DNA of 64,000 nucleotides. Source: Mahella sp. GTDB taxonomy: Bacteria; Bacillota; Clostridia; Mahellales; Mahellaceae. Position 1 is the stretch's first letter, and each line of letters starts with the position of its first letter. The notes under the pieces were generated by a model, which saw nothing but the letters and a program-made list of their open reading frames with translations, ran no database searches and had not been told where the DNA came from. Below are positions 38,362 through 54,967 of the stretch, in pieces. The translations under genes and the position numbers were made by a program. The DNA is taken from positions 1 through 64,000 of the forward strand of contig NZ_JAIHAU010000009.1 in the NCBI RefSeq assembly GCF_020054945.1, in the 5' to 3' direction.

Positions 38362-39198
38362 TCATATGCGAATATACTGCTCAAACCTTTTTCGCATGGC
38401 ATGTAGTTCCTGCAGTTGGGCAAGGGTGTCCTCCTGCTCCATGGTCACCGCTACTATGAGGCACTCTACCAGCGCCATAGGAGCCACCATGGAATGAAAC
38501 TCCCAAAGCTCGCCGCGGGCCGTATACAAGGCTATATCGCTTAAATCTATCATTTCCGATATAAGCATATCTGTTATCAATATAGTGGTGCAGCCTTCGT
38601 TTCTGGCGAAGTCCAGTATAGCATGGATCTCGGGTATCATCCTGACAAAACCGAATATCACCACCGCATCATCTTTCTCTATGTTCACCATGGATTCAAA
38701 TAACTCCCTACCGCTTTTGGCCATCTTCACCATACGCTTGCCCATGCGATTCAACCTGAAACACAAGAGATCGGCTAAGCTTTCGCTTGGACCGGGACCG
38801 AATACATAAACGGCACGAGCCTCCTTAATGGCCTTCACCGCTTTTACAAATTGGTCTTTGGACAGGTTTTTTAAGGTTTCATCGAGATAGGTTGAAGCGG
38901 TTTTCAACATACGGGTTGCAATATCCTCCCTGGATATCTTATTCAATATATCCTTCATCTTGCTTGCCGGAGTTATGGTAAGCTTCTGTTCCAGATATTG
39001 CTTGAAGTCCTTGATGCTCTTAAAGCCCACTGTCCGCCAGAAACGGGACACAGTAGCTATGCTGACGCCTAATTCATCGCCTATATCCCTTTCGGTCATA
39101 TATGCGATCCTCGGCGGGTTCTTTAATATAAAGTCGGCGATTTTCCTTTCACTTTTTGTCATTTCGTCCGCGTTGAGCTCGATGTCAAAAAATTTCAT
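38362..39198 (-). CDS. MurR/RpiR-family regulator, divergent from the ECF operon
   Basis: A 278-residue regulator: an HTH with LGVSIATVSRFWRTVGF near residue 45 and a C-terminal SIS domain (VYVFGPGPSESLADLL, ADIALYTARGE type sequence). ATG 39198 (MKFFDIELN) has GGAGG at the right distance. Its own promoter is overlapped by a palindrome, which suggests autoregulation, and it probably also affects the divergent PHO-box operon. The ligand would be a phosphosugar by family knowledge. Confidence 0.88.
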   Translation of the reverse strand: MKFFDIELNADEMTKSERKIADFILKNPPRIAYMTERDIGDELGVSIATVSRFWRTVGFKSIKDFKQYLEQKLTITPASKMKDILNKISREDIATRMLKTASTYLDETLKNLSKDQFVKAVKAIKEARAVYVFGPGPSESLADLLCFRLNRMGKRMVKMAKSGRELFESMVNIEKDDAVVIFGFVRMIPEIHAILDFARNEGCTTILITDMLISEMIDLSDIALYTARGELWEFHSMVAPMALVECLIVAVTMEQEDTLAQLQELHAMRKRFEQYIRI

Positions 39199-39229
39199 AA
39201 ACATCCTCCAAACAAGATTTTCACACTAT

Positions 39230-39258
39230 ATTATACAATATAAAAGCTAAAAATGAAA
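39230..39258 (-). promoter_or_regulatory. Promoter of the divergent RpiR regulator
   Basis: On the minus strand TTTCAT (39258-39253) and TATAAT (39235-39230), spacer 17 bp. The -35 falls inside the palindrome at 39250-39273. Confidence 0.6.
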
Positions 39259-39273
39259 GAAATTTTTCATTTT
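39250..39273. promoter_or_regulatory. RpiR-type operator palindrome
   Basis: AAAATGAAA (39250-39258) and TTTCATTTT (39265-39273) form a perfect 9-bp inverted repeat with a 6-nt centre. TGAAA/TTTCA half-sites are typical of RpiR-family operators in Firmicutes (from memory). It sits on the regulator's -35 and 18 bp from the PHO box. Confidence 0.6.
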
Positions 39274-39290
39274 ATAATATAAAGATAAAT

Positions 39291-39344
39291 TTTACACAAA
39301 ATTAACCTTGACTTAACATCAGCTTAACATGAAACCATTAAAAT
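39291..39344 (+). promoter_or_regulatory. PHO box and -10 element before the ECF/PHP operon
   Basis: Four hexamers every 11 bp: TTTACA (39291), TTAACC (39302), TTAACA (39313), TTAACA (39324). A -10 hexamer TAAAAT is at 39339-39344, again 15 bp after the start of the fourth repeat. This marks the operon as a probable PhoP target. Confidence 0.8.
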
Positions 39345-39392
39345 TAATGATAGAAAGATCAAAATATTATCGCGAAGGAGAGGTGTTTGATT

Positions 39393-40253
39393 ATGGAAAG
39401 AGTTTTGCGCCCTGAGAGAAAAAACAGCTCAAAAGACCTTATGTTGTTCATATTGGTGTTAGCATTATCGGGTATAGAGAACCTGATAGCCGAAGTCCTT
39501 CCCGAATTTCAATTGGGTCCTATCGAGGTAGGCATTTCCAGTTTCATATTCGTGCCTATTGTGCTGTGCATCCTGTTCGATTCGTTTTGGGCAGCGTTAG
39601 CGGCTCCAATAGGTGAGCTGGTATTTGCCGACCTCATACTCGGCGAGTTCGGTGGATTAGGTGAGTTTGAAGAGGTTATACTGCTCACCATGGGCCTATA
39701 CATCGCCGGCAAGATGGTAAAGGACGTGACCAATAGAAAGCAGATCGCTGCTGCCGCTTTATTTGCTTTCATATTCCAGGATTTGATCGGTACATTTATC
39801 GACATGACTAAGGTGTGGGTTGGCATCGAAGATTTTGAGGCGATCTCCGGTCTCCCCGAGAGCGTGTTCGCTCTGGAGATGATAGACTTCCTTGTTGAAT
39901 TTGCCGTCACGGGTATTATATTCGGCCTTATTCCTACGCTCTACTTCGCACCAAGGCTTTACGGTAAAATAGAACCGCTGCTTGGTATAAAGCCTCGTCT
40001 CATCGAAAAGGGCGCTGCGCTCAATGTGCCTATTCGCTTGATCGGCGGCGCAATTATAGCCGTAATAGCAGCTGCTGCCGTATCCATGCTTTCGGGCGCA
40101 GGCTTTAACATCATAGAATGGGAACCGGAATTTCTGGATCAATTCGGTCAGTGGTACATATGGGTGCCTATAACTATCGCAGCGATTGTGGCTATAGTGG
40201 TCATATGGCTGGGCAAATCGAACAATGGTGAAGGGCAAGATATAAATGTCTGA
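39393..40253 (+). CDS. ECF-transporter S-component-like membrane protein
   Basis: A 286-residue integral membrane protein with about seven hydrophobic segments (for example LMLFILVLALSGIENLIAEV, FIFVPIVLCILFDSFWAALA, GLYIAGKM, LIGGAIIAVIAAAAVSML), unusually long for an S component (typically about 200). The gene precedes the double ATPase and EcfT genes, so it most likely provides substrate specificity. A substrate cannot be deduced from residues; the PHO box suggests a phosphorus compound. ATG 39393 has GAAGGAGAGG upstream. It overlaps the ATPase gene by 8 nt. Confidence 0.75.
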   Translation: MERVLRPERKNSSKDLMLFILVLALSGIENLIAEVLPEFQLGPIEVGISSFIFVPIVLCILFDSFWAALAAPIGELVFADLILGEFGGLGEFEEVILLTMGLYIAGKMVKDVTNRKQIAAAALFAFIFQDLIGTFIDMTKVWVGIEDFEAISGLPESVFALEMIDFLVEFAVTGIIFGLIPTLYFAPRLYGKIEPLLGIKPRLIEKGAALNVPIRLIGGAIIAVIAAAAVSMLSGAGFNIIEWEPEFLDQFGQWYIWVPITIAAIVAIVVIWLGKSNNGEGQDINV

Positions 40254-41970
40254 AAGTATCATACGTATCGAGGGTCTATCGTTTGTATATCCAGCCAACG
40301 AGAGGCCATCTCTCGATAATATCGATCTTGAGATAAACAAAGGGGACTTTGTATCTATAATAGGCGGCAACGGCAGCGGTAAGACCACACTTTGCAAATG
40401 CATAAATGGGATTATACCCCACTTTATAGCCGGTGATTTTTACGGTGAGGTAAAGGTTTGCGGTGTCGATACCTTGGATATGCCGGTATCCACCTTAGCC
40501 CAGCGCGTTTCATATATATACCAGGATTTTGAGAGCCAGCTTGTGCGGCCGACAGTGCTCGACGACGTCACATTCGGGCCGTTGAATTTTGGCATGAAGG
40601 ATTATCACCAAAAGGGCATGGAGGCCTTGAGGATGTTGGACATAGAAGGCCTTAAGGATCGATTTATATGGGAGCTCAGCGGCGGACAGAAGCATCTGAC
40701 CGCGTTAGCGGGAGCTTTAAGCGTAAAACCCGATATAATAATAATCGATGAGCCGGCGGCGCAGCTTGATCCCTACAATGCGGTGGCAATATACCGGAGG
40801 CTTAAAATCTTAAATGAAAGCTTTGGCATAACCGTCATCACCATCGAGCACAACACCGAGCTTATCGCCGAATATTGCAATAGTGTCATATTGATGGACG
40901 CCGGCCGCGCGGTATGGATAAAACCAGTACGCGATGCCTTGAATGCTGTAAATGATCTTGTAAAAAGAAACATATATCCTCCGCAGGTGAGCCAAGCGGC
41001 ATGGCGCATCAGCCCAAACATGCCCTCTTATCCCCTTACTGTCGGCGAAGCCGAGAAATACTTTGCCGCGGCAAGGATACAATGCCCCGTCGAGAGCAAT
41101 GACTGTGGTCTTGGCGATGATGCCCATATGCCTCATCCCGCAATCGAGTTCAAAGACGTTTCCCTTTGGTTCAGATCCTTGACCGAAACCACCAAAAACG
41201 TCTTGAAGGATATAAGCCTCTCTATAAATGAAGGGGAAAATGTGGCCATCGTCGGAAACAACGGCGCCGGCAAATCCACGCTGCTCAAAATGATAACCGG
41301 CGTGATAAAGCCAAAGGGTGGGCATATAACCGTCTATGGTACGGAAACGGCAGAGATTATGCCTGAGGAGCTGTCATCGACGGTGGCTTATATATATCAA
41401 AATCCCGAGGAGATGTTCATAGAGGATAGCATACGCAAGGATATAAGCTATTTTTTAAAGACGAGACACAAAGCGCATGAATACGAGGTGTTGGATTATT
41501 TCATTAATGATATCATAAAATCCTTCGGTTTAGAGGACCTCCAGCACAAAGACGGCCGCATGCTAAGCGGCGGCCAACAGCGCAGGGCATCGTTGGCCAT
41601 AGGCGTCGCCATGCAGCCTAAGATACTCCTTCTTGATGAACCCACCGGCAGCCTCGATATTGAAAGCCGGCGCGAGATGGTCAACTCTTTGGAATTATTA
41701 AAAGATCGGGTCAAGACTGTGATCATAGCCACCCACGATATGTCGCTTGCGGCTGAATGGGCTGATCGGGTTATAGTAATGAAAGACGGTCGGATCATCG
41801 CCGACGGGGATACGAGATCGATATTCGACGATATAACGCTGCTGGATCAATGTCACCTGAAACCGCCGCAAATAGTGGAATTAAGCAAGCGCCTGAACAT
41901 GCGGCCCATAGCCTTGAGCATAGATGAGTTTACCTCCCGCATAAGTTCAATAGATGAGGTGATGATATAA
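40246..41970 (+). CDS. ECF transporter ATPase with two fused ABC domains
   Basis: A 574-residue protein with two complete ATPase domains. First: IIGGNGSGKTTLCKCING, LSGGQKHLTALAGAL, IIIIDEPAAQLDP. Second: IVGNNGAGKSTLLKMITG, LSGGQQRRASLAIGV, ILLLDEPTGSLD. This corresponds to EcfA1 and EcfA2 in one chain. It overlaps the S-like gene and the EcfT gene, indicating a single translation-coupled unit. Confidence 0.92.
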   Translation: MSESIIRIEGLSFVYPANERPSLDNIDLEINKGDFVSIIGGNGSGKTTLCKCINGIIPHFIAGDFYGEVKVCGVDTLDMPVSTLAQRVSYIYQDFESQLVRPTVLDDVTFGPLNFGMKDYHQKGMEALRMLDIEGLKDRFIWELSGGQKHLTALAGALSVKPDIIIIDEPAAQLDPYNAVAIYRRLKILNESFGITVITIEHNTELIAEYCNSVILMDAGRAVWIKPVRDALNAVNDLVKRNIYPPQVSQAAWRISPNMPSYPLTVGEAEKYFAAARIQCPVESNDCGLGDDAHMPHPAIEFKDVSLWFRSLTETTKNVLKDISLSINEGENVAIVGNNGAGKSTLLKMITGVIKPKGGHITVYGTETAEIMPEELSSTVAYIYQNPEEMFIEDSIRKDISYFLKTRHKAHEYEVLDYFINDIIKSFGLEDLQHKDGRMLSGGQQRRASLAIGVAMQPKILLLDEPTGSLDIESRREMVNSLELLKDRVKTVIIATHDMSLAAEWADRVIVMKDGRIIADGDTRSIFDDITLLDQCHLKPPQIVELSKRLNMRPIALSIDEFTSRISSIDEVMI

Positions 41971-42776
41971 TGAACCCCTTCAAAGGTATGCTGGATAAAA
42001 TAAACGTTGAAAGTGTCGAGCTGGAGCTCATGCGGACAGCTTATGGCTCTACCACGACACTTTTGTCCAAACTGGATCCCCGCATATTGATGGTATGGTA
42101 TTTGATATTCGCATTCGCCCCCTGGTTTTTCTTCGACAGCGCAAAGCTTCTTTCCATATTCGCATTTGTAACGGTTATTACGGCCATATCCAAAGCCAAT
42201 AAACTCGTTTTGTTCCTGCTTTGTTTGGGCATCATCGGGCAAATGGCATGTTATGCCATAGTGGCCTACTTTTTAGGAGGAAACATGGCGGCATTAGCAG
42301 CGCTGCTCACGCTTACGCTTAAACTGGCCACCATATCTTTGGCCAGCATAGCGGTATTCTCCAATATAGACCCCGAAAGATTCAGCGATGCTTTATTAAG
42401 CTTCGGCGCTCCGGCTCAATTGGCTTTTTCGATCTCTTACGGATATCGGGTCATACCGGTTATGGTCGAGGAGTACAAGGATATCATGCTCTCTTTCAGA
42501 TTAAGAGGTCATGCCCCTTCAAAAAAAGGGTTCCTGTCTTGGCGTTACGCCTATTATCTGCTAAAGATAGCGGTGCTGGCCTTTTATCCCCTGATATTGA
42601 ATACCGCAAAGCGAATCAGGACCACCATCGAGGCTTTGGAGACAAAGGGCTTTTCCTACGCAATGAACAATAACGATGTAAAACGCCTCAAGCTATCCTA
42701 TTTGAAGATAAAAGCCGCCGATATCATCTTCCTTTTGGTTTCCATTCTGATCCTCATAGCAATAATATTAATATAA
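41970..42776 (+). CDS. ecfT: ECF transporter transmembrane subunit EcfT
   Basis: A 268-residue membrane protein with five or six helices and the cytoplasmic coupling motifs of EcfT (MLSFRLRGHA and TIEALETKGF, positions equivalent to the paired A-R-G motifs). ATG 41970 overlaps the ATPase stop codon (ATAATG). It connects the S component to the ATPases. Confidence 0.88.
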   Translation: MNPFKGMLDKINVESVELELMRTAYGSTTTLLSKLDPRILMVWYLIFAFAPWFFFDSAKLLSIFAFVTVITAISKANKLVLFLLCLGIIGQMACYAIVAYFLGGNMAALAALLTLTLKLATISLASIAVFSNIDPERFSDALLSFGAPAQLAFSISYGYRVIPVMVEEYKDIMLSFRLRGHAPSKKGFLSWRYAYYLLKIAVLAFYPLILNTAKRIRTTIEALETKGFSYAMNNNDVKRLKLSYLKIKAADIIFLLVSILILIAIILI

Positions 42777-42792
42777 ACAGGAGAAATCGAAT

Positions 42793-43530
42793 ATGAATAT
42801 AGATTTTCATTGCCACGGCAAGCCGAGCAAAAAGCTGAGTTTTTCGTTGCCCTATTTTTCGCGATATATAAGAATGGCCAAACGAAACGGATTGGATGCC
42901 ATCGCTTTTACAGAGCATTTCAATACGATGGATTTCTACGATATCTATCATAAGCTGGACAATGCTTTCCCATATGCAGACGGCTATTATGATGCATATG
43001 ATGTCAAGGTGTTTTGCGGCATGGAGATAAACGTTAAAGAAGGCGGCCATGTGCTCATAATCGGCTACAAGAAGGATATCTTGGATATCAGAGCCCTATT
43101 CCCCGAAGAGATATCCAAGAAGGACTATCCGGCCTTTGAGCATCTCATGGAGCTGGCCGACAGCCGCGGCATGATAAAGATAGGAGCGCACCCATTTCGA
43201 AATAGCAATATACTATGCCGCCATGATGAATATGCTTTGAAACAGCTTGATTTCATCGAGTTAAACGGCAAGAACATCGACCAAAAGGACGATGTATACG
43301 ATTTGGCCCGAAAAATCAATCTTCCCGTTATAGCAGGCAGCGACAGCCACCATTGGTTTCAGCTCGGTTGCATGAAAAACCGCCTTCGCGATGAATGCGA
43401 TAGCTTTCAAGAGCTGAAAGATTGCATTAAAAGCAACCGCTACGATATAGACGTATCCCCGCATATAAATCTGAAACTGGCTATGGCTTTCATGTGCAAA
43501 AAACTTATAAAAAGTGTATATGAGAAGTAA
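42793..43530 (+). CDS. PHP-domain phosphoesterase, candidate PhnPP
   Basis: A 245-residue PHP-family metallo-enzyme. Metal motifs in order: DFHCHG, FTEHF, GMEINV, GAHPFR, ELNGKN and GSDSHHW, all present. A PHP enzyme from Eggerthella lenta (PhnPP, EC 3.1.4.57 as I recall) hydrolyses 5-phosphoribosyl 1,2-cyclic phosphate, the product of C-P lyase, and this operon adjoins a phn locus that lacks phnP. I therefore propose that role; it is inference. It lies 17 bp after ecfT and shares the PHO-box transcript. Confidence 0.75.
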   Translation: MNIDFHCHGKPSKKLSFSLPYFSRYIRMAKRNGLDAIAFTEHFNTMDFYDIYHKLDNAFPYADGYYDAYDVKVFCGMEINVKEGGHVLIIGYKKDILDIRALFPEEISKKDYPAFEHLMELADSRGMIKIGAHPFRNSNILCRHDEYALKQLDFIELNGKNIDQKDDVYDLARKINLPVIAGSDSHHWFQLGCMKNRLRDECDSFQELKDCIKSNRYDIDVSPHINLKLAMAFMCKKLIKSVYEK

Positions 43531-43620: not shown

Positions 43621-43674
43621 TTAACACAGATTTAACAAAGATTTAACACTGCCATAATGTTGACAAGTTATCAT
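43621..43674 (+). promoter_or_regulatory. PHO box and -10 element before the phn operon
   Basis: TTAACA at 43621, 43632 and 43643, exact copies 11 bp apart, with a degenerate fourth (ATAATG, 43654) in register. TATCAT at 43669-43674 is 15 bp after the start of the fourth repeat. A separate TTGACA (43660) with TAAACT (43682) could form an ordinary promoter. PhoP control of phosphonate use is the expected biology. Confidence 0.8.
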
Positions 43675-43714
43675 GCTCTTGTAAACTAAAAAATATGAAA
43701 AGGAGATGGTATCT

Positions 43715-44674
43715 ATGTCAAAGCGTAAATCTATCGCGGTGTTATTTGTCGGCATGATGATCTTAATGCTGGTTTTGTCAGCCTGTAGCGCTCAAGATCA
43801 GCCCGATGCATCCGCCGGTGGCGGATCGAACCAAAGCGTGCCGGAGGACAACTCGAAAAAAGGATGGCCTGAGGTTTTGCATTACAGCGTGGTGCCCGGA
43901 GAAAGCCAGGAGTCTCTCGCTAAGACCTTTGAGCCGGTGGTGGAGGATCTCAGCGAGGCGCTGGGCATTGAAGTGGAATTCTATATTCCTACCGACTATA
44001 CGGCTGTGATCGAGGCTATGCGCACCCAAAAGGTTGATGTGGCCGAATTCGGTCCATTTTCCTATATAATTGCCAATGAGCGCAGTGGTGCCGAGGCCTT
44101 TGCGGTAGCAGCCAAAAGCCCTGAGGAGGCCTTTTACACAAGCGTGATAATCGTGCCCGACGAGTCTCCTGCCAAAACCCTGGATGACCTTAAAGGCAAA
44201 AAATTTCTTTTTGTTGATCCGGCTTCTACTTCGGGGAACCTATTTCCTCACGTGATGCTGGCCAAGCATTTTGGCTTAAAGACAGCGGATGAAGTGGATA
44301 AATTATTCAGCAGCGTGTCCTTCTCCGGAGGGCATGATGCATCAGCGCTGACCATAGCCAAAGGCGATGCTGACGGCGCCGCCGTTTCAAGCTCCAGTCT
44401 GAAACGATTTGTGGATAAAGGCCTGCTCAAAGACAGCGATTACAAAGTTATAGCCGAATCCTCGCCTATTCCCGTTGACCCTATAACCTACCGCAAAGAT
44501 CTGCCTGAGGATTTAAAACAGAAAATAAAAGATTTCTTCTTATCTTACCAAAACGAAGAGATATTCGCTGAACGGGGTATCAACGGCTACTTCCCTATCG
44601 AAGATTCTGACTATGATATAGTTCGAGAAACGGCCGAGATACTCAATATGAGTCCGGAGGAATTGTTGAAATGA
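43715..44674 (+). CDS. phnD: Phosphonate ABC transporter substrate-binding lipoprotein
   Basis: A 319-residue lipoprotein: a signal peptide ending in the lipobox LSAC, a low-complexity linker, then the PhnD periplasmic-binding fold (YIPTDYTAVIEAMRTQKVDV, AEFGPFSYIIA, GKKFLFVDPASTSGNLFP, the phosphonate-binding stretch SGGHDASALTIAKGDAD). It captures phosphonates outside the membrane. I choose ATG 43715 because AAGGAG lies 9 nt before it; ATG 43706 is too close. ATGA overlap with phnC. Confidence 0.95.
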   Translation: MSKRKSIAVLFVGMMILMLVLSACSAQDQPDASAGGGSNQSVPEDNSKKGWPEVLHYSVVPGESQESLAKTFEPVVEDLSEALGIEVEFYIPTDYTAVIEAMRTQKVDVAEFGPFSYIIANERSGAEAFAVAAKSPEEAFYTSVIIVPDESPAKTLDDLKGKKFLFVDPASTSGNLFPHVMLAKHFGLKTADEVDKLFSSVSFSGGHDASALTIAKGDADGAAVSSSSLKRFVDKGLLKDSDYKVIAESSPIPVDPITYRKDLPEDLKQKIKDFFLSYQNEEIFAERGINGYFPIEDSDYDIVRETAEILNMSPEELLK

Positions 44675-45441
44675 GCGAGATCGTAAAGGCCGATGGCATA
44701 GCCCAGCCTATATTGACAGTAAGCGCTTTAAAAAAGACCTATAAAGATGGAACAGTGGCATTGCGAGGTGTGGATTTTACTGTTAAAGCAGGGGAAATTG
44801 TGGGCATCATCGGTTCCAGCGGTGCGGGGAAAAGCACCCTTATGCGCTGCATCAACCGATTGATAGAACCGTCGGACGGTTATGTGTATTTCGATGGCAT
44901 CGATGTGACTAAATCCAATAAACATCAATTGCGCTACGTGCGACGCCAAATGGGTATGATATTTCAAAGCTTCAACCTGATAGCGCGAAGTACCGTTCTA
45001 GGCAATGTATTGAACGGCCGATTGGGGTATATGGACAGCGTAAGGGGGGCTTTGGGTATATTCTCGAAACAAGATATCGAGGATGCCATGAGCATATTGG
45101 AGCGCGTCGGGCTTGTGAATCAAGCGCATAAAAGAGCGGACGAATTGAGCGGGGGTCAACAGCAGCGGGTAGGTATCGCCCGGGCACTCGCCCAAAAACC
45201 CAAACTCATATTGGCGGATGAACCCATAGCCAGCCTCGATCCGGTCACATCTGAAAACATAATGGATTATATATACCGTATATGTAAAGAGGATGGAATA
45301 ACATGTCTTATCAACCTGCATCAGGTGGAGTTTGCTAAAAGGTATGCCGACAGGATAATAGGCATACGAGCCGGCAGAAGGGTCTTTGAGGGCAGAGCGC
45401 AGGATCTTGCTCAGGACGTTGTGCAAGAGATCTATGCATGA
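44671..45441 (+). CDS. phnC: Phosphonate transporter ATP-binding protein
   Basis: A 256-residue ATPase: Walker A IIGSSGAGKSTLMRCINR, signature LSGGQQQRVGIARALAQ, Walker B LILADEPIASLDP. The sequence FDGIDVTKSNKHQLR is PhnC-like. It overlaps phnD and phnE by 4 nt each. Confidence 0.96.
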   Translation: MSEIVKADGIAQPILTVSALKKTYKDGTVALRGVDFTVKAGEIVGIIGSSGAGKSTLMRCINRLIEPSDGYVYFDGIDVTKSNKHQLRYVRRQMGMIFQSFNLIARSTVLGNVLNGRLGYMDSVRGALGIFSKQDIEDAMSILERVGLVNQAHKRADELSGGQQQRVGIARALAQKPKLILADEPIASLDPVTSENIMDYIYRICKEDGITCLINLHQVEFAKRYADRIIGIRAGRRVFEGRAQDLAQDVVQEIYA

Positions 45442-46217
45442 GTTATGAAAGATGTGATGATATGAGATGGAAAAAATTCCTGCTGATTTTGGTCCTTGTG
45501 GCTATCACAGTCTGGTCGATGGCCGGCATCGACTTTTCTATAAAGGAGATCGTTTCCGGCATGGGGGAGGTTATCCGTTTCATAACCGTGGATATGATTC
45601 CTCCGGATATATCCAGCCTGTTCGATCTTATGCAGCCGCTACTGGATACCATTTATATGAGCTTGGTGGCCGTAGTAGTCGCCGCTGTAATTTCCTTTGT
45701 GCTGGCATATCTTGCTTCCAGCATCACCACACCTCATCCGATATTGCAGATAGCCGCTAGGGGAGTGGCATCGATATTGCGCACTATACCAGATATGGTT
45801 TGGGTGCTGCTTTTGGTGCCGGCATATGGTTTAGGGACTCTGGCAGGAACTATGGCGTTGCTCATAGCCGGCGTGGGTCTACTTACACGTTCTTTTGCTG
45901 AGGCGTTGGATGAGGTTGATAAGGGCCAGTTGGAAGCTGTTAAAGCCACCGGAGCCAGTTGGCTTCAGACCATGAGCAGGGCGGTGCTGCCTCAGTTTTT
46001 ACCTCAATTTGTAAGCTGGTCACTTTTCGGATTGGATACCAATGTGCGCAGTTCCACCATGATCGGTATGGTAGGCGCCGGCGGTCTTGGTTTTGCCATA
46101 CAGTCGGGTATAAAGCTATTTCAGTTTGAAGAGGTTACCATGGCCATCCTGATGACGGTGGTTCTATTCATAGGTATAGAGATGATCACGACTAAACTGA
46201 GAAGGAGGATAATATGA
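45438..46217 (+). CDS. phnE: Phosphonate transporter permease, first
   Basis: A 259-residue permease with six helices and the coupling motif EALDEVDKGQLEAVKATGAS, followed by NVRSSTMIGMVGAGGLGFAI typical of PhnE. ATG 45438 overlaps phnC; ATG 45462 would also be a reasonable start. The second permease follows with a 4-nt overlap. Confidence 0.94.
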   Translation: MSYERCDDMRWKKFLLILVLVAITVWSMAGIDFSIKEIVSGMGEVIRFITVDMIPPDISSLFDLMQPLLDTIYMSLVAVVVAAVISFVLAYLASSITTPHPILQIAARGVASILRTIPDMVWVLLLVPAYGLGTLAGTMALLIAGVGLLTRSFAEALDEVDKGQLEAVKATGASWLQTMSRAVLPQFLPQFVSWSLFGLDTNVRSSTMIGMVGAGGLGFAIQSGIKLFQFEEVTMAILMTVVLFIGIEMITTKLRRRII

Positions 46218-47062
46218 GTGTTGATTTAGCAAAAAAGGAGATGCCCATAGGGCAGCCCGAGCCATCCGGCGTCGAGCAGCACAGAAACAGGACCAATGAT
46301 CGCTATCTGCTTTGGATAGCGTTGTTTAGCATTATTTTCTTCATTTTTGCTTTGCAGCAGTTGGATTTCGATTATGGAAGATTGATAAGCGGTACGAGAG
46401 AATTGCCATTAATGGCTGTTAAAATGTTTCCGCCAAATTTTTCCGAATGGGAAGACGTATTGCGATCAGTGGCGGAGACATTTCAGATGACGTGGGCGGC
46501 TACATTGCTGTCGGTGGTTGTTGCCTTTGTGCTTTCATTCTTCTGTGCGGCCAATACGGCGCCCAGCCGTTGGATGTTTTGGTTTCTGCGTGGCTTTGCG
46601 GCGCTCATGCGCGCCATACCGGTGCTGGTATGGGCTATCATATTTGTGGCGGCATTGGGATTAGGACCGCTGCCTGGGGTATTGGCATTGGCCATTCATA
46701 GTTTAGGAATGATGATAAAGGTGTTTTCCGATTCTATAGAAGAGGTGGACCAACGGGTGTTGGAGGCCATGCGCGCCGCGGGAGCCGGGTGGTTACAGAT
46801 GATAGTGCGGGGTGTTCTGCCGTTGGTATATACATCGTTTATGTCATGGGCTTTGCTTAGATTCGATATCGATCTTAGGTACGCCACAGTCCTGGGGATG
46901 GTCGGAGCTGGTGGCATAGGCTGGCAGCTCATTCGATCCATGCACATGTATGAGCTGCACGATGCGCTGTTTATTGTAATGGTTATGTTTGCCATGCTTT
47001 ATACCGTTGAGATGATGAGCAATTTTATTAAAAAAAGGATGATTAACGCTAATGGATTATAA
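46214..47062 (+). CDS. phnE2: Phosphonate transporter permease, second
   Basis: A 282-residue paralogue of the preceding permease, with SIEEVDQRVLEAMRAAGAGW and DLRYATVLGMVGAGGIGWQL. Two PhnE copies are common and may form a heterodimer. It overlaps phnG by 11 nt. Confidence 0.94.
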   Translation: MSVDLAKKEMPIGQPEPSGVEQHRNRTNDRYLLWIALFSIIFFIFALQQLDFDYGRLISGTRELPLMAVKMFPPNFSEWEDVLRSVAETFQMTWAATLLSVVVAFVLSFFCAANTAPSRWMFWFLRGFAALMRAIPVLVWAIIFVAALGLGPLPGVLALAIHSLGMMIKVFSDSIEEVDQRVLEAMRAAGAGWLQMIVRGVLPLVYTSFMSWALLRFDIDLRYATVLGMVGAGGIGWQLIRSMHMYELHDALFIVMVMFAMLYTVEMMSNFIKKRMINANGL

Positions 47063-47501
47063 AGATAAAGCCATATTGACCAGAATACTGGTGGAGGGTG
47101 ACAAAAGCATATGGGGGAACTGGTCTGAAGATGTATCAAGGTGCCATGAAGTGACGGAGGTTAAACCCGCCAGTAGGAGTCTGGTCATGGTAAAGGTCAG
47201 GGATTCGGTATCCCAACAGCCATTTTATATGGGAGAGGCGCTTATGAGCGAGTGCGCAGTGAAGGTGGATGGGGTGGCAGGGTTTGGTGCCATTATGGGA
47301 GATTGCCCGGAGCATGCCCGAAGCTTGGCGGTGATCGATGCGGCGTTCAACGCCTGTCTGCCCGAAGTCGAAAGGTGGCTACCGGTGTTAGCCGAGCAGG
47401 AAAAATTAATTGAGAAGCGGCAGAGACAGGACTATGCGGCGGTATCGAAAACAAAGGTGGATTTTTCCACTATGGAGGATTATGATGGCAAAGACAGATA
47501 G
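47052..47501 (+). CDS. phnG: C-P lyase core subunit PhnG
   Basis: A 149-residue core-complex subunit. The family stretch FYMGEALMSECAVKVDGVAG with GAIMGDCPEHARSLAVIDAA is present. With PhnI it performs nucleosidase chemistry, attaching phosphonate to the ribose of ATP at C1' and releasing adenine. Overlaps phnE2 and phnH. Confidence 0.93.
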   Translation: MDYKDKAILTRILVEGDKSIWGNWSEDVSRCHEVTEVKPASRSLVMVKVRDSVSQQPFYMGEALMSECAVKVDGVAGFGAIMGDCPEHARSLAVIDAAFNACLPEVERWLPVLAEQEKLIEKRQRQDYAAVSKTKVDFSTMEDYDGKDR

Positions 47502-48078
47502 CTTGGTATTTGATCCGGTATTCGATGCTCAATGGGTCTATAGGCAGCTTTTGGATGCCATGGCCCGGCCGGGCAAGATTTGCAGCGTGCTTAAGCCTCC
47601 TATGACCTCTATAGCTTTGACGCTGCTGGATAATGAGGTGACCTTTGCTATTGCAGGTCGCGGTTCTGCCGATGAGGAAAGGCATATAAGATGGCTTACA
47701 GGCAGCAGCCCTGCGCCATGGGATAGAGCCGACTATATATTCGCAGAAGGAGCGCTGGAGGATAAACAAATTGCGGAGATCATGCATATGGCAAAACGAG
47801 GCAGCCTGCTTAGGCCCGATGAGAGCGCTACCATAATTTTGTCCGTGGAAGAGCTTGGCAAAGGGAAACAGCCCGGAGGATATATATTGAGAATATCCGG
47901 GCCGGGCGTCGAACATGAACGGTTTTGTGCGGTCAAAGGGTTATCCTCATGCTGGATGCGCTTACGCGAGATCGTCGATGCGGAGTATCCTATGGGTATA
48001 GACATGATAATAACCGATGAAAAAGGCGAGATCATAGCTTTACCCCGTACTACCATAATAAAGGCTGGTGACAAATAA
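47482..48078 (+). CDS. phnH: C-P lyase core subunit PhnH
   Basis: A 198-residue subunit beginning MMAKTDSLVFDPVFDAQ, with RQLLDAMARPGKIC and LSSCWMRLREIVDAEYPMGI conserved in PhnH. It lies in the core complex with G, I and J. ATG 47482 is preceded by GGAGGA and overlaps phnG by 20 nt. Confidence 0.92.
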   Translation: MMAKTDSLVFDPVFDAQWVYRQLLDAMARPGKICSVLKPPMTSIALTLLDNEVTFAIAGRGSADEERHIRWLTGSSPAPWDRADYIFAEGALEDKQIAEIMHMAKRGSLLRPDESATIILSVEELGKGKQPGGYILRISGPGVEHERFCAVKGLSSCWMRLREIVDAEYPMGIDMIITDEKGEIIALPRTTIIKAGDK

Positions 48079-49208
48079 TGGGATATGTTACAGTTACCGG
48101 AGGAAAAGAGGCTATAGTCTCGGCCAACCGTCTCATAAGGTTTTATCGTTTAAAGGATGCAGCCGTGCCTTTGGATGTAAAGGAAATACAAAGCCAGATG
48201 CGCCTCATGATTGATCGAGTCATGGGAGAAGGTGGGTTATATGCGCCTGAATATGCTGCCATAGCCTTAAAGCAGGCCGAGGGTGATATAGCCGAAGCGG
48301 CTTTTTTGCTGCGGGCTTATCGTTCGACACTGCCACGCAGCCATTATTCTCTCACGGTAGAACCGGCGCAAATGCGCCTCATAAGGCGTATATCATCGGC
48401 ATTTAAGGATATACCGGGGGGGCAGATGCTAGGGCCTACCTATGATTATACCCACAGGTTGATTGATTTCGCTTTGACAAACGAAAATGAGGACGATATA
48501 GCCGCTTTTATAAAGGATTTCCGCCAAGAAATGGATGATGCCGAGCAGATGCCAACATTTTCGAAGGTGATAGATGTCTTGCGTTCAGAGGACTTGATGG
48601 ATGGCATGCCCGAATCCCATGCCGAAGCGACGCCATTCGATGTGACTATGGAAAGCTTGAGCTTTCCGGCACCTCGGTCGGCTAGGTTGCAGCTCTTGGC
48701 TAGGGGAGAGACCGGTGCTATGGTAGCGCTGGCATACAGCAGCATGCGCGGCTACGGTGCGGTGCATCCCACCATAGGCGAATTGCGAGTGGGTTTTGTT
48801 TCGGTGTATATACCCTATCCATTCTCCGACCAAGCGGAGGGAATGCCGATATATATAGGCGAGATATTGCTAACCGAGGTGGAGATTATAAACTCCTTCG
48901 CCGAGAATAAGACAGCTGATAAGGCCCGATTTTCGATGGGCTACGGTCTTTGTTTCGGCCATAATGAGCCTAAAGCCATCGCTATGGCCATATTAGAGAG
49001 CAGCCTTGAAACCCAAGGCACGGCGCCCGTGCAGGATCAGGAGTTCGTACTCATGCATATAGACAGCGTCGAGGCCAACGGTTTTGTATCACATTTAAAG
49101 CTGCCCCATTATGTCACATTCCAATCATCTCTGGATCGCATAAGGCAGACCCGGAACCAGCCCGGAAAGGAGGAAATCGATGTTATCGCTGATCGACGAG
49201 AGGTATAA
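48078..49208 (+). CDS. phnI: C-P lyase core subunit PhnI
   Basis: A 376-residue nucleosidase-like subunit. The start GYVTVTGGKEAIVSANRLI, the MGEGGLYAPEYAAIALKQAE block, and VAGHNEP-like FGHNEPKAIAMAILE match PhnI. Length matches other PhnI proteins (E. coli 354). It overlaps phnH by one base and phnJ by 29 nt. Confidence 0.96.
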   Translation: MGYVTVTGGKEAIVSANRLIRFYRLKDAAVPLDVKEIQSQMRLMIDRVMGEGGLYAPEYAAIALKQAEGDIAEAAFLLRAYRSTLPRSHYSLTVEPAQMRLIRRISSAFKDIPGGQMLGPTYDYTHRLIDFALTNENEDDIAAFIKDFRQEMDDAEQMPTFSKVIDVLRSEDLMDGMPESHAEATPFDVTMESLSFPAPRSARLQLLARGETGAMVALAYSSMRGYGAVHPTIGELRVGFVSVYIPYPFSDQAEGMPIYIGEILLTEVEIINSFAENKTADKARFSMGYGLCFGHNEPKAIAMAILESSLETQGTAPVQDQEFVLMHIDSVEANGFVSHLKLPHYVTFQSSLDRIRQTRNQPGKEEIDVIADRREV

Positions 49209-50034
49209 CTTCGCTTTTTTGGACGAGGGGTCAAAACGGGAGATACGGCGCAAGACTCTTAAAGCGGTGGCCATTCCGGGTTATCAAGTACCATTTGCCT
49301 CAAGGGAACTGCCCATAGCGCGCGGATGGGGCACCGGAGGGCTTCAGCTCACGCTTTCATTGATAGGGCCAAAGGATGTGCTCAAGGTCATCGATCAAGG
49401 CAGCGACGACAGCGTCAACGCGGTGAGCATACGCCATCTGGTGGAGAACACAGCCGGCATAGCTACTACTGAAGAGACCGGAGAGGCTACGATAATACAG
49501 ACGCGCCATCGCATACCTGAACAACCCCTTAGGGAGAATCAAATATTGGTGTTTCAAGTACCACTTCCAGAACCTCTTCGTGTCATAGAGCCAAGGGAGG
49601 AGATAACGAGGCGCCAGCATGCCGAGATGGATTACAGCTCCATGTGGCTGAGCCTTTATGAAGATATAGTGCATTGGGGTGTGGTGACGGTAAGTCACAG
49701 TTACCCATGTATCGCACACGGCAGGTATCTTTTCAGTCCCAGCCCTATACCCCGATGGGACATACCGAAATTAAACCATGCCGAATGTCTTTACCTTTTC
49801 GGAGCCGGACGCGAAAAGCGTATATACGCCATACCGCCTTATACCGATGTGCTGCCTCTGTCCTTTGAGGATTATCCTTTTGAGGTAGAAAGTTTTGTGG
49901 GGCGTGCATGCTGCAAATGTGGCAGCTCGGATACATTCCTCAACGAGATATTTGATGAGGCTAGCGGTCAAAAGATATATCAATGCAGTGATACGGCATT
50001 TTGTAAAAAAAGGCAGAGGGAGCGGGAAATATGA
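49180..50034 (+). CDS. phnJ: C-P lyase radical-SAM subunit PhnJ
   Basis: A 284-residue enzyme that cleaves the carbon-phosphorus bond by radical SAM chemistry. The atypical cluster motif CX2CX21CX5C is complete near the C-terminus (CKCGSSDTF ... YQCSDTAFCKK), and the glycine-rich RGWGTGGLQLTL region near the N-terminus is where the glycyl radical site lies. AAAGGAGG precedes ATG 49180. Confidence 0.97.
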   Translation: MLSLIDERYNFAFLDEGSKREIRRKTLKAVAIPGYQVPFASRELPIARGWGTGGLQLTLSLIGPKDVLKVIDQGSDDSVNAVSIRHLVENTAGIATTEETGEATIIQTRHRIPEQPLRENQILVFQVPLPEPLRVIEPREEITRRQHAEMDYSSMWLSLYEDIVHWGVVTVSHSYPCIAHGRYLFSPSPIPRWDIPKLNHAECLYLFGAGREKRIYAIPPYTDVLPLSFEDYPFEVESFVGRACCKCGSSDTFLNEIFDEASGQKIYQCSDTAFCKKRQREREI

Positions 50035-50909
50035 TGGAAACCAAGATTTTAAGCCAACAGGAAACTGACGATGCATTCGATGAGCATGATATACCTTTAA
50101 TGAAAGTAAAAGGTTTAAGCAAGCGCTATGGTGAGGGATGCGAAAAATGTACCATGGACGACAGTATAAGCCGATGCCCTGAATGTGGTGCCCTGTGGGC
50201 GTGTCGAGATATATCCATCGAGCTTTATCCAAAGGAGATACTCGGCATAGTAGGTGAGAGCGGATCGGGCAAAAGTACCCTTATGCGTTGCCTATACTTT
50301 GAAGAGCAAGTTACCCATGGTGCTATGTATTTGTCGATTTTTAGAAGCGGCAAAGCCGATTTATTTAAGGAATCGTCCCAAATCCAGCGGTATATACGCA
50401 ACCATATGATGGGTATGGTATTTCAGAACCCGTGGATGGGGCTTAGAATGCATATTTCAGGCGGTGGCAATATAGCCGAAAAGCTTATAGCTGCGGATAT
50501 GTACCATGTGGGCAGTATACGCTGCCGGGCAGCCGAACTGTGGCGTCGGGTCGAGATGCCATTAGAGCGCATGGATGAATCGCCGAGAAACTTCAGCGGC
50601 GGTATGCAGCAGAGGGTTCAGATAGCCAAAGCACTGGCCAATCATCCGCCTCTCTTGTTTTTGGATGAGGTTACTACCGGATTGGATCTATCTGTACAGG
50701 CCAAGGTATTAGATCTAGTGCGGCAGTTGCAGCAGGAGCTGGGAGTGGCCATGCTCATCGTATCCCACGATCTGGCCGTCATAAGGATGTTGGCCGATCG
50801 CACCGTGGTCATGAAGCATGGACGGATTATAGAAGAAGGGCTTACCGATCAGATATTGGAGGACCCGCAGCATCCGTATACACAGCTTTTGGTACGTTCG
50901 TTACTATAA
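50031..50909 (+). CDS. phnK: C-P lyase accessory ATPase PhnK
   Basis: A 292-residue ABC-type ATPase (VGESGSGKSTLMRCLYF, FSGGMQQRVQIAKAL, LLFLDEVTTGLDL) that binds the core complex. Between strand 1 and Walker A an insertion carries two Cys pairs, CEKC and CPEC, that could hold a metal. Some PhnK proteins from Gram-positives have a similar insertion, as I recall. ATGA overlap with phnJ. Confidence 0.94.
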   Translation: MMETKILSQQETDDAFDEHDIPLMKVKGLSKRYGEGCEKCTMDDSISRCPECGALWACRDISIELYPKEILGIVGESGSGKSTLMRCLYFEEQVTHGAMYLSIFRSGKADLFKESSQIQRYIRNHMMGMVFQNPWMGLRMHISGGGNIAEKLIAADMYHVGSIRCRAAELWRRVEMPLERMDESPRNFSGGMQQRVQIAKALANHPPLLFLDEVTTGLDLSVQAKVLDLVRQLQQELGVAMLIVSHDLAVIRMLADRTVVMKHGRIIEEGLTDQILEDPQHPYTQLLVRSLL

Positions 50910-50917
50910 AGAAGGGG

Positions 50918-51649
50918 GTGTTTTATATATTAAAGGTGGAATCATTAGTTAAGCGCTTTCATCTGGCCCTGACACGGGACATAGATGTATGCGCGCTGGA
51001 TGGCGTATCATTCGAGGTGCCTCAAGGGTGTTTTCTGGGTATAGCCGGCCCCAGCGGCGTCGGCAAATCGACTATATTGAAATGCATATACCGTACATAT
51101 CTGCCTACGTCGGGCCATGTATGGTATCGGTCAGCGCTTTTTGGGGAAATCGATCTCGCCAATGCTTCAGAGAGACAGATAAGCCTATTGCGGGCGCAGG
51201 AGATAGGATACGTATCCCAATTTCTAAAAGTGATACCCAGGGTGACAGCAATTGATGTGGTGGCCGGGAGGCTGATCCCATTCGATTATACGTGGCAGCA
51301 GGCCCGGCAAAGGGCGCAGTTGTTGCTGGAGATGCTCCATGTGCCGAAGGATCTGTGGGATGCTTATCCAGCCACCTTCAGCGGCGGAGAGCAACAGCGC
51401 ATCAATCTCGCGCGGGGCTTTATAACTCGGCCCCGATTACTGCTTTTGGATGAACCCACCGCATCTTTGGATGATGGAATGAAACAACATGTAGTGGAGC
51501 TTATCTTGAAAATGAAGCAAGAGGGGGTAACTATGGTGGGCATATTTCACGATCAAGACACCATGAAACGAGTGGCTGACAGCGTTCTTAACATGGGCGA
51601 TGTCATCGCAAGAAACGATATCGCGAAGAGAGCGGAGGCTATGTCATGA
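50918..51649 (+). CDS. phnL: C-P lyase accessory ATPase PhnL
   Basis: A 243-residue ATPase (IAGPSGVGKSTILKCIYRTY, FSGGEQQRINLARGF, LLLLDEPTASLDD), with the typical PhnL text YVSQFLKVIPRVTAIDVVA. The GTG at 50918 is a poor start in position relative to the GA-rich stretch; GTG 50936 is an alternative. It overlaps phnM. Confidence 0.94.
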   Translation: MFYILKVESLVKRFHLALTRDIDVCALDGVSFEVPQGCFLGIAGPSGVGKSTILKCIYRTYLPTSGHVWYRSALFGEIDLANASERQISLLRAQEIGYVSQFLKVIPRVTAIDVVAGRLIPFDYTWQQARQRAQLLLEMLHVPKDLWDAYPATFSGGEQQRINLARGFITRPRLLLLDEPTASLDDGMKQHVVELILKMKQEGVTMVGIFHDQDTMKRVADSVLNMGDVIARNDIAKRAEAMS

Positions 51650-52854
51650 TGTCTGTAAAGCGCATAACAGGTGGCAAGCTCGTCATGCCCTTTGGCATTA
51701 TGGAAAACGCCGCTTTGATCTTGGAGAATGGCAAGATCGCTGCCATTGAAGAAAGGCCTTCGGTGGCTTATAAGGAGGGGGATATGGATGCCTCGGGTCG
51801 ATGGGTGTTGCCGGGCATAATAGATTGCCATAGCGACGCCATCGAAAGGGAGATGCAGCCGCGCCCCAACAGCAGTTTTCCTTTTGATGTGGCTTTTTAT
51901 GAATTGGAACGCAGGCTGATGGGTTGCGGTATCACTACAATCTTTCATTCTATATCCATGTTTAACGAGAGCGGAGGAAATCAATTGCGTACCAATGGTG
52001 CAGTCCGCCGCATGGTACATGATATACGTCGCATGGCGAATAGCTGTGGCTTGATAAGGCATAAGATACATTTACGATTTGAGATAAACAATATATCGGC
52101 CGTACCCATCGTAGAGCAAATGCTGCGGGAAGGTTCGATAGATGAGCTGTCATTTATGGATCATACTCCGGGGCAGGGCCAGTTTAGGGATCTAGAGGTT
52201 CAAAAGAGAATCTATAGGGATCTGTATGCCCTTTCAGATGGGGAGGTAGTCCGTCTTTTAGAGAAACGGCAACAGATGGCGGTATTGGATGCCGACGAAT
52301 TACAGCGGTTAGCAGATCTGGCTTATAGCTGCGGTATACCGCTGGCATCTCATGATGATGATTCAATCGAAAAACTGGAGCTTGTCAAGGGATGGCATGC
52401 GTGCATAAGCGAGTTTCCAGTCGATATGGATGTGGCGAACAAGGCGCACCGAGAGGGCTTGCACGTGGCTGTGGGTGCTCCGAATGTGCTGCTGGGCAGG
52501 TCCCACAGCAATAACCTCTCGGCGCTTGATAGCATTAAAGCCGGTGCTGCAGATATACTGTGCTCTGATTATTATCCGCCGGCGCTTTTGCATGCAGTGT
52601 TTTACCTGCAAGATTTGGGATATCCGGCAAACGACGCTGTGAATATGGTATCGTTAAACCCGGCCAAGGCTTTGGGTATAGCGAGGTGCAGTGGCTCCAT
52701 AGAGGTAGGCAAAGAAGCGGATTTAATCTTGATAAATAAGCATGGGGTACGCCCCGTGCTGGAGAAGGTATTGGTCGGAGGCGATGTGGTTTATGAGCTC
52801 CATTGCCAAAAGCAGGATTATTACAATAGAGAGGAGATAAAAGGTGGGCATTAA
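51646..52854 (+). CDS. phnM: Ribose 1-methylphosphonate 5-triphosphate diphosphatase
   Basis: A 402-residue amidohydrolase-fold enzyme converting alpha-D-ribose 1-phosphonate 5-triphosphate to the 5-phosphate plus diphosphate. DCHSDAIEREMQPRPNS, FHSISMFNES, SHDDDS and the C-terminal IARCSGSIEVGKEADLI are conserved. It is the last of the canonical core genes; phnN and phnP are absent. Overlaps phnL and the next gene. Confidence 0.95.
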   Translation: MMSVKRITGGKLVMPFGIMENAALILENGKIAAIEERPSVAYKEGDMDASGRWVLPGIIDCHSDAIEREMQPRPNSSFPFDVAFYELERRLMGCGITTIFHSISMFNESGGNQLRTNGAVRRMVHDIRRMANSCGLIRHKIHLRFEINNISAVPIVEQMLREGSIDELSFMDHTPGQGQFRDLEVQKRIYRDLYALSDGEVVRLLEKRQQMAVLDADELQRLADLAYSCGIPLASHDDDSIEKLELVKGWHACISEFPVDMDVANKAHREGLHVAVGAPNVLLGRSHSNNLSALDSIKAGAADILCSDYYPPALLHAVFYLQDLGYPANDAVNMVSLNPAKALGIARCSGSIEVGKEADLILINKHGVRPVLEKVLVGGDVVYELHCQKQDYYNREEIKGGH

Positions 52855-53782
52855 GGCTGTCGGAGTCAGCCTGATGGATAATCGGGCGGTAAGGGAAATG
52901 GATGTGCTGGAAAGGAAGTTGGCTAAGATATCCCAATTGGGATTTAAAGCAGTGGAGGTCCCAATCGAGGGTATGGACGTTATAGTAAACGGCAATATAG
53001 ATTATAAGCGGTTGAAGATGTATATGGAGCTTCTTGCGCGGTTTGATTTAAAGTATACTGTCCATGCGCCGTTGGACATGAATATATTTTACCGGGAGGA
53101 TTTTGAAAGCGAGCACAGGTTGCTAATGGCGTCACTGGAGGTAAGCGGGATAATGGGCGCGCCTATGATGGTCTATCATCCCGGCAGGTTTGTAGCTGAG
53201 ACCGAATTTTTATGTCCGCGGGATTGGACGGAATACAGTCCGCTGCAACAGGAGAGACTTTTAGAGAAAGAGAGGGAGGTCTTGAGAGAGGCCGGCGATA
53301 AGGCAAAAGCATGGGATATGCTCATAGGCATAGAGAACATGAGGCCGTATCTGGATTATCACGGTTATTGCTACGCCGAGATACCCCGGCGATTAGTAGA
53401 ACAGGTAAAGGCCATAGGACACAGCAACATAGGCATAACGCTGGACGTAGGCCATTTATATATAGCTTCGCGCATATATGGGTTGGATATGACCGATGAA
53501 TTGAAAGCCATGCTACCTTATATAATACACGTGCATATGCACGACAATTTTGGCAAACCATGCTATTCATGGGAGAAGGATCAATACGAGCTGGTGCCCA
53601 GAGGGCGAGGGGATATGCATATGCCTATAGGCCATGGCAGCATACCCATGGATGGAATATACAAGACCCTTTTGCCGCATTATAATGGTTATATAATCCA
53701 CGAACTGCGAGAACGCTACGAGGATCAATGGCCGGAATTGGCGGCTTGGCAAACAAAGGTTTGCCGAGTTGAAAGCGCATAA
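52844..53782 (+). CDS. TIM-barrel sugar-phosphate isomerase/AP-endonuclease family protein in the phn operon
   Basis: A 312-residue AP_endonuc_2-type barrel. Metal ligands are suggested by YHPGRF, IGIENMRPY, TLDVGHLY, HVHMHDN, and IIHEL near the end. Members include xylose isomerase, endonuclease IV and sugar epimerases. Its place directly after phnM, overlapping it by 11 nt, suggests it handles a ribose-phosphate product of C-P cleavage. No specific reaction can be stated. GTG 52844 has GAGGAG upstream. Confidence 0.8.
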   Translation: MGIKAVGVSLMDNRAVREMDVLERKLAKISQLGFKAVEVPIEGMDVIVNGNIDYKRLKMYMELLARFDLKYTVHAPLDMNIFYREDFESEHRLLMASLEVSGIMGAPMMVYHPGRFVAETEFLCPRDWTEYSPLQQERLLEKEREVLREAGDKAKAWDMLIGIENMRPYLDYHGYCYAEIPRRLVEQVKAIGHSNIGITLDVGHLYIASRIYGLDMTDELKAMLPYIIHVHMHDNFGKPCYSWEKDQYELVPRGRGDMHMPIGHGSIPMDGIYKTLLPHYNGYIIHELRERYEDQWPELAAWQTKVCRVESA

Positions 53783-53796
53783 AGGAGGTAGGGCAT

Positions 53797-54423
53797 GTGA
53801 ATATTTGGTCGAAAGGTATGCTTGGGGAGCAAGGTTACACGCATCCTACGTCGAAGGTGGTGGACAGCCGCCTGGGGCAATGGACGGCATTGGGACCTAA
53901 TGTGATCCTAATGGAATCCAGTTTTAACGATTATAGCTATGCGGCAGGGGATAACACCATAATATATTCCGAGATAGGGAAGTTTTGTTCCATAGCGTCT
54001 CATGTATGCATAAACCCCGGCAACCATCCCATGGGAAGGGTTATGCAGCATCATGCCACCTATAGGCGAGCGGCCTATGGATTTGGGGATACGGATGATG
54101 AGAATTTTTTTGGTTGGCGCAAAGCTAATAAGGTGGTAATAGGCCATGATGTGTGGATAGGGCATGGCGCCATCGTGTTGCCCGGAGTCGTCATAGGCAC
54201 AGGCGCAGTGGTGGGCGCCGGTGCTGTGGTAACAAAGGATGTGGAACCGTATATGATAGTAGCGGGCGTGCCCGCAAAGCCCATACGAGAGCGTTTTCCA
54301 AAGGATGTGGCGAATAAGCTCACGGAGGTGGCGTGGTGGGATTGGCCCCGACATCTCTTGGAGGAGCGCTTTGCGGATTTCTTCGATCTCGACGTTTTTC
54401 TGGAAAAATATTGCGGGAAATGA
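53797..54423 (+). CDS. Hexapeptide-repeat acyltransferase of the phosphonate-metabolism family
   Basis: A 208-residue left-handed beta-helix acyltransferase. Hexapeptide repeats are visible at IGHDVWIGHGAIVLPGVVIG, TGAVVGAGAVVTKDVE and in the N-terminal half. A subgroup of the Vat/DapD-like family is annotated as a phosphonate-metabolism transferase because it recurs in phn operons. It may acylate aminoalkylphosphonates. GTG 53797 follows AAAGGAGG. Confidence 0.82.
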   Translation: MNIWSKGMLGEQGYTHPTSKVVDSRLGQWTALGPNVILMESSFNDYSYAAGDNTIIYSEIGKFCSIASHVCINPGNHPMGRVMQHHATYRRAAYGFGDTDDENFFGWRKANKVVIGHDVWIGHGAIVLPGVVIGTGAVVGAGAVVTKDVEPYMIVAGVPAKPIRERFPKDVANKLTEVAWWDWPRHLLEERFADFFDLDVFLEKYCGK

Positions 54424-54511
54424 TCCACTTTGTTTGAGGGCAAATGTTCATTAGGCGATGGTTGGGAAGCAGAGTATGCTATAACTAAGGATAACGATAA
54501 GGAGAATAGGT

Positions 54512-54967
54512 ATGATAATACGGGAGATGAAAGCTGACGAATTGTCCGCCATATGCGGGTTGCTGGAGGAAATAGATCAGGATGCCAATATGCCGTCACC
54601 GCAGGCACAAAGCATATGGGAGGCCATGAACGGCTACAGCTACTACAAGATTTTTGTAGCCGAGGATGAAGCCGCTGATCCGCCGGCCATAGTGGGCACA
54701 TTTGCGCTCTTGATAGTCCATAACCTCGGGCATGGTGGCAAACCCTTCGCTATTGTGGAGAACGTGGTGGTTAACCCTGACCATCGGGGCAAGGGCATAG
54801 GGCACCGGATGATGGAGGAGGCCATGATTTTGGCAAAAGCCCAAGGCTGTTACAAGCTTATGCTTTCCAGCGATATAAAGCGGGAGGCCGCTCATAGATT
54901 CTATGATAGCTTGGGTTTTGAACGGCATGGCATAAGCTTTAGAATAAACCTTATATCGAGGGTATGA
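54512..54967 (+). CDS. GNAT N-acetyltransferase, PhnO-like
   Basis: A 151-residue GNAT protein. The acetyl-CoA-binding motif is VNPDHRGKGIGHRMMEEAM, and FYDSLGFERHG is the C-terminal GNAT signature. In phn loci PhnO acetylates 1-aminoalkylphosphonates, and this gene occupies an equivalent place. ATG 54512 has AAGGAG upstream. It overlaps phnF by 4 nt. Confidence 0.85.
   Translation: MIIREMKADELSAICGLLEEIDQDANMPSPQAQSIWEAMNGYSYYKIFVAEDEAADPPAIVGTFALLIVHNLGHGGKPFAIVENVVVNPDHRGKGIGHRMMEEAMILAKAQGCYKLMLSSDIKREAAHRFYDSLGFERHGISFRINLISRV

Follow-up and report, generated by a model that had tools for sequence, protein, structure and literature searches.

Organization of the locus

Vitamins and trace metals are the known cargoes of ECF importers. 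In a Mahella sp. contig, the genes of such an importer stand behind a PHO-type box, together with a gene for a PHP-fold enzyme and directly ahead of a phn operon, which raises the question of what this importer brings into the cell and what the enzyme does with it. A sequence-only reading of the stretch of DNA analyzed (64,000 nucleotides, hereafter the window) had proposed a Pho-controlled module that imports a phosphorus-containing nutrient and processes C–P lyase products. The positions and identities of its gene calls agree with the open reading frames and with Pfam and NCBIfam profiles (Table 1). The reverse-strand rpiR gene diverges from a series comprising the genes for an S component-like protein, a fused ECF ATPase, EcfT, and the PHP enzyme, followed by phnD and the remainder of the phn operon. 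The fused ATPase exceeds the cut-offs of the NCBIfam ECF ATPase models TIGR04520/TIGR04521 over two matched stretches, and carries the Walker A, signature, and Walker B motifs twice each.

Table 1. Positions of features in the window, and of corresponding or related features at other loci
Feature	Location	Strand	Support
RpiR-family regulator	38362-39204	-	Pfam HTH_6 E 1.6e-14, SIS 1.5e-11
Candidate RpiR operator TGAAA-N6-TTTCA, perfect palindrome	39254-39269	.	10/10 match
PHO box, four TTHACA-like hexamers, 11-bp period	39291-39329	+	score 23/24
S component-like protein, 286 aa, ATG 39393	39393-40253	+	predicted six-helix S fold and two C-terminal helices
Fused double ECF ATPase (EcfA-EcfA')	40246-41970	+	TIGR04521 381 bits (cut-off 330)
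EcfT, CbiQ family	41970-42776	+	PF02361 39 bits (cut-off 25)
PHP-fold metallohydrolase (predicted)	42793-43530	+	PF02811 and PF13263
Second, separate PHO box (of the phn operon), three perfect hexamers	43621-43648	+	motif search
phn operon phnD-C-E-E-G-H-I-J-K-L-M, TIM barrel, two acetyltransferases, phnF	43706-55701	+	profile matches
AP_endonuc_2 TIM barrel, 3' of phnM	52844-53782	+	PF01261
PHO-type array before HflK/prohibitin-like gene	L112, L113 (G454:C93:3119, G452:C1:4576328)
PF01910 gene, Paenibacillaceae	L015:14712-15014; also L016, L019, L022, L038
phn loci with TIM barrel in place of PhnPP-type PHP	L135, L137, L142, L148, L149, L151
Haloarchaeal loci	L178-L192, L028
Inositol-monophosphatase family gene	L087:14260-15087; L091:4555-5334

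Distribution and conservation of the cassette

Relatives of the S protein were searched for in one genome per species over 84,980 species, and the best 80 of the 394 found were kept for locus reading. The genes for S, the double ATPase (EcfAA), EcfT, and PHP are contiguous in 77 of these best 80, with the exceptions of one haloarchaeon, one Fredinandcohnia species, and one contig end. Within the best 80, the intact set spans Bacillaceae, Paenibacillaceae, and Clostridia, and the closest relative of the window protein (64% identity) is found in a Gracilibacter metagenome-assembled genome. Many carriers belong to anaerobic lineages, namely Lachnospiraceae and other gut Clostridia. The rpiR gene adjoins the cassette or lies near it in 74 of the 80 loci; in Bacilli it is upstream and divergent, and most gut Clostridia have it downstream of the cassette. 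No further neighbor is conserved in Bacilli beyond the core, PF01910 and others being limited to single clades; a PF01910 (thiamine-binding-protein) gene follows the PHP gene in five Paenibacillaceae loci of one clade.

The S gene did not turn up in any other close relative searched, two further Mahella species among them, and a class-wide search starting from one gut Clostridium covered 289 other genomes without yielding another carrier. A sample of the phylum (398 genomes) contains the gene in four other genomes, in one of them only as a 77-residue remnant. This remnant shares 70% identity with the S protein and lies within a 105-aa open reading frame (L007:1444-1761, G103:C30), near which no ATPase or EcfT was recognized; the frame is apparently a decayed S remnant.

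PHO-type arrays and the RpiR regulator

The four hexamers upstream of the window operon read TTTACA-TTAACC-TTAACA-TTAACA in an exact 11-bp register. For comparison among loci, the best four-hexamer array of 11-bp period within 230 bp upstream was scored, with 726 other genes of the same loci as controls. Scores of at least 19/24 were obtained for 35 of 79 S upstream regions and for none of the 726 control regions. The cassette loci are related, so that the comparison is phylogenetic footprinting rather than 79 independent events, and the count is inflated by shared ancestry. In Bacilli the distance between the array and the S start codon is near-constant, usually about 85 bp; gut Clostridia have weaker arrays (scores 14–19). 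The TTHACA repeats and their 11-bp spacing are shared with the Bacillus Pho regulon (pstS and related promoters). Consistent with a Pho-type role, a search of the whole window genome for three repeats with at most one mismatch gave eight forward and one reverse matches, against zero and one, respectively, for a reversed control pattern, and the arrays include those of pstS, phnD, a phosphoesterase gene, and the ECF operon. When the derived pattern was applied to five cassette genomes, pstS was among the exact matches in three. The array may be bound by a PhoP-type regulator. Rfam searches upstream of the operon, covering the window and eight relatives, detected no riboswitch.

Several other elements were seen in these searches. 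A PHO-box-like array in the window's genome (L098, G000:C54:7203-7230) precedes a gene whose product looks like an EAL-domain c-di-GMP phosphodiesterase, and in two Bacillus-type genomes an exact PHO-type array stands ahead of a gene for an HflK/prohibitin-like (SPFH-looking) membrane protein. Elsewhere in the window, a SAM riboswitch (RF00162, 93 bits; 26083-26187) is located upstream of the gene at 26294.

A second conserved upstream element, the palindrome TGAAA-N6-TTTCA, matches at 9 or more of 10 positions in 44 of 80 cassette upstream regions and in 23 of 726 controls (3%), and is a candidate site for RpiR. The regulator has the HTH_6 and SIS architecture common to the MurR/RpiR phosphosugar regulators (NanR, HexR, and MurR). 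However, NanR and its relatives keep the SxSGxT phosphate-binding loop of the SIS domain, whereas the window protein has FGFVRMIPE in its place, and F-x-F-x-R/K replaces the loop in most of the 75 aligned RpiR members; the loss is also evident in comparison with the structure 4ivn. The divergent orientation given in the sequence-only reading holds, but the protein does not look like an ordinary phosphosugar sensor and may respond to something other than a phosphosugar.

Enzymes accompanying the S family and the proposed function

Among 145 genomes from the haloarchaeal class, 16 also carry the S family, all in one clade, in which other enzymes take the place next to the importer genes. A ComB-family gene (2-phosphosulfolactate phosphatase, PF04029) adjoins S-EcfAA-EcfT in 14 of the 16 haloarchaeal loci. 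Eight of the 16 have a HisJ-like PHP, unrelated to the PHP type of the window, and the other eight a TIM barrel like that of CbiR, a phosphodiesterase belonging to the AP endonuclease 2 superfamily (PMC7733943). In two gut Clostridia, a gene of the inositol-monophosphatase family is inserted between the PHP and rpiR genes. The S family thus accompanies mutually non-homologous phosphoester-cleaving fold classes, and their presence beside the S gene, together with the PHO-type sites, provides the chief reason to expect phosphorus in the substrate.

Altogether, we consider it likely, though well short of certain, that the cassette is a self-contained ECF importer of the Pho regulon for a phosphorus-containing organic compound, equipped with a dedicated metallohydrolase. 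Under phosphate starvation, a PhoP-type regulator would bind the four hexamers phased by 11 bp and switch on S-EcfAA-EcfT-PHP, while the divergently encoded RpiR, possibly acting as a repressor, would tune the operon in a ligand-dependent manner through the palindrome. The S protein would capture the substrate on the outer side of the membrane, and the dedicated EcfT and double ATPase would power its toppling and release of the substrate inside, where the PHP metalloenzyme may cleave an ester of the imported compound, most likely a phosphoester, to yield usable phosphate. Several points speak against this proposal. The PHO count comes from related loci, and the arrays of gut Clostridia are weaker. 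Proteins other than phosphatases also occur among the PHP, AP_endonuc_2, and ComB folds, the diiron oxidative enzyme PsfC being one relevant case, and acidic, base-poor loops such as those of the S protein are odd for a binder of anions. The Pho-controlled importer with its PHP enzyme, as suggested from the sequence, has held up in that S, PHP, and PHO box are conserved together across genomes; the assignment to C–P lyase has not, as described below.

A broader interpretation, to which we give about an even chance, is that the family represents a new class of ECF systems for organic phosphorus, carried by hundreds of Bacillota and by one branch within the Halobacteria. In this class, one S family would repeatedly have been paired with non-homologous phosphoester-cleaving enzymes (PsfC-like PHP, HisJ-like PHP, CbiR-like TIM barrel, ComB, and the inositol-monophosphatase family), some of them folds that also replace each other at the end of phn operons. 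If the proposed function is correct, a conserved PHO-controlled importer would extend the range of ECF transport to phosphorus scavenging, and would constitute an uptake route in hundreds of Bacillota from soil, saline, and gut habitats as well as in haloarchaea. It also names a concrete gene set, with an unannotated orphan S family and a partner enzyme open to assay. To our knowledge, no other ECF importer takes up a phosphorus source, which is a further point against the proposal. The earlier suggestion that such a system is undescribed appears to be right, as neither an ECF importer among Pho targets nor a Pho-regulated ECF transporter was found in the open literature searched.

The S protein and the nature of the cargo

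A scan of 34 diverse members of the S family gave no plausible match to any Pfam or NCBIfam family, those of known S components included, and a sequence search of the PDB with the S profile gave no match. The AlphaFold2 model, calculated with 34 relatives as input, has a mean pLDDT of 79.6. In a Foldseek search of the PDB, TmRibU, SaRibU, ThiT, and PanT ranked highest, closely followed by YkoE and BioY (probability, 0.85–1.00; E-value, 0.05–0.5; target-length TM-score, 0.42–0.66 over ~190 residues), with probabilities of 1.00 and target-length TM-scores of 0.58–0.66 for RibU and ThiT; the remainder of the model consists of two additional C-terminal helices. Because of this predicted S fold and the dedicated EcfT and ATPases encoded in the same operon, we treat the protein as the S component of a new family. 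The arrangement resembles that of the dedicated (type I) transporters YkoEDC and CbiMNQO, which likewise have their own S component, ATPase, and EcfT in each operon, share the fused ATPases, and have in common with it the RibU/ThiT/YkoE-type S fold. Unlike these systems, the window S protein falls in no described family and carries the two extra C-terminal helices, and its operon, under PHO-type control, includes the gene for a metallohydrolase. The membrane and extracytoplasmic loops contain many conserved acidic residues (Glu34, Glu91, Glu93, Asp137, and Glu162) and few basic ones, which might point, weakly, to a zwitterionic or cationic compound.

The strongest rival is a cargo without phosphorus, namely a vitamin or cofactor precursor that is in greater demand at low phosphate and is modified by PHP after uptake. 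All ECF substrates that we know of are micronutrients, the nearest S folds are those of vitamin S components, the pocket loops are acidic, and the gene following the operon in the five Paenibacillaceae loci encodes a thiamine-binding protein. That gene, however, is restricted to one clade, the operon is without an upstream riboswitch, PHO-type control has been kept across genera, and enzymes of phosphatase families recur independently in archaea and Clostridia, so that we regard a phosphorus-free vitamin as unlikely, although a serious competitor.

Import of a metal ion, required by PHP or by other phosphatases of the Pho regulon, is improbable. This alternative would account for the conserved acidic residues and the CbiQ-family EcfT, and the six plus two helices, with the extra pair acting like CbiN, would resemble in outline a CbiM-CbiN fusion. 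Against it, the alignment of 34 diverse S members shows no invariant His or Cys, and the metal-binding His at the N-terminus of CbiM/NikM-type proteins is absent; the Foldseek matches listed are RibU, ThiT, PanT, YkoE, and BioY rather than CbiM or NikM. On the basis of the alignment, an importer of the cobalt or nickel type was rejected.

Relationship to the phn operon

We then return to the phosphorus-compound importer and its position beside the phn operon, which had led to the suggestion that PHP processes the C–P lyase product. According to this explanation, PHP would replace PhnP or PhnPP in acting on the cyclic phosphoribosyl product, and the importer would feed the phn pathway. The two gene groups adjoin and each has a PHO box, and the absence of phnP noted from the sequence is confirmed insofar as no PhnP scored above the cut-off in the window genome (86% complete). 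The linkage does not extend beyond the window: none of the best 80 loci has phn genes within 10 kb (only generic ABC-type matches were obtained), and the adjacency is private to the window, phn lying outside the conserved cassette. PhnJ is present in 8 of 46 cassette genomes, compared with 21 of the 398 phylum genomes sampled; carriers thus have it above the average rate, yet mostly lack it (38 of 46). Furthermore, both systems occur together in eight genomes; in seven of them the phn operon contains its own, distinct PhnPP, the eighth being a contig too short to judge.

The window PHP is also distinct from PhnPP (phosphoribosyl 1,2-cyclic phosphate diphosphodiesterase, NF041661). Both belong to the PHP superfamily, but the window protein scores 31 bits on a profile of phn-linked PHPs, against 369–432 bits for true members, and 297 bits on a profile of PHPs from the ECF group, indicating a separate branch; it has no match to NF041661 at E-values up to 1. 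Among 27 other phn loci read, 12 have a PHP of the different branch near or at the operon end, two of which were scanned and match NF041661 with E-values of 1e-70 to 1e-88. Six others of the 27 have an AP_endonuc_2 TIM barrel directly 3' of phnM or near it, and none of the 27 has both TIM barrel and PhnPP. The phn-linked TIM barrels of some Bacillota operons look like a non-orthologous PhnP, and the window TIM barrel scores 310 bits on a profile of them; by the simplest reading, it would fill the PhnP/PhnPP slot of the window's phn operon. On the grounds of the profile separation, the missing NF041661 match, and the survey of phn loci, a PhnP-like function was rejected for PHP, and its participation in the C–P lyase pathway is a shade less probable than metal import. 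The phn TIM barrel is weakly related to CbiR, and inositol-monophosphatase-looking genes are also present in some phn operons (L136, L139, L144, and L147).

The PHP enzyme

As the putative hydrolase of the proposed phosphorus-compound importer, the PHP enzyme of the window keeps all metal-ligand positions (His6, His8, His42, Glu78, His86, His133, Asp184, and His186), and at least 90% of the 49 aligned members retain the ligands (HxH, E/H, E, H, and DxH). Its AlphaFold2 model (pLDDT, 95.7) is closest by a wide margin to PsfC among solved folds (TM-score, 0.83; E-value, 1.6e-15; sequence identity, 19%); EndoQ and the predicted phosphoesterase TM0559 come next and also match well. The Pseudomonas protein PsfC, a dinuclear non-heme iron enzyme, takes part in fosfomycin biosynthesis (PMC12871164), and shares with the window PHP the fold and the HisxHis...GSDxH framework. 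The surroundings differ, as the window PHP has no phosphonate biosynthesis genes nearby and its relatives are found in anaerobic carriers. That PHP is a PsfC-like diiron oxidative enzyme acting on an imported phosphonate, for which the closeness to this dinuclear iron enzyme speaks, is the least probable of the explanations considered, with an identity of only 19%, the good matches to EndoQ and TM0559, and the many anaerobic carriers in which an O2-using step is unlikely. Since so many carriers live in anaerobic gut lineages, we favor hydrolysis over an oxygen-dependent reaction for the PHP enzyme.
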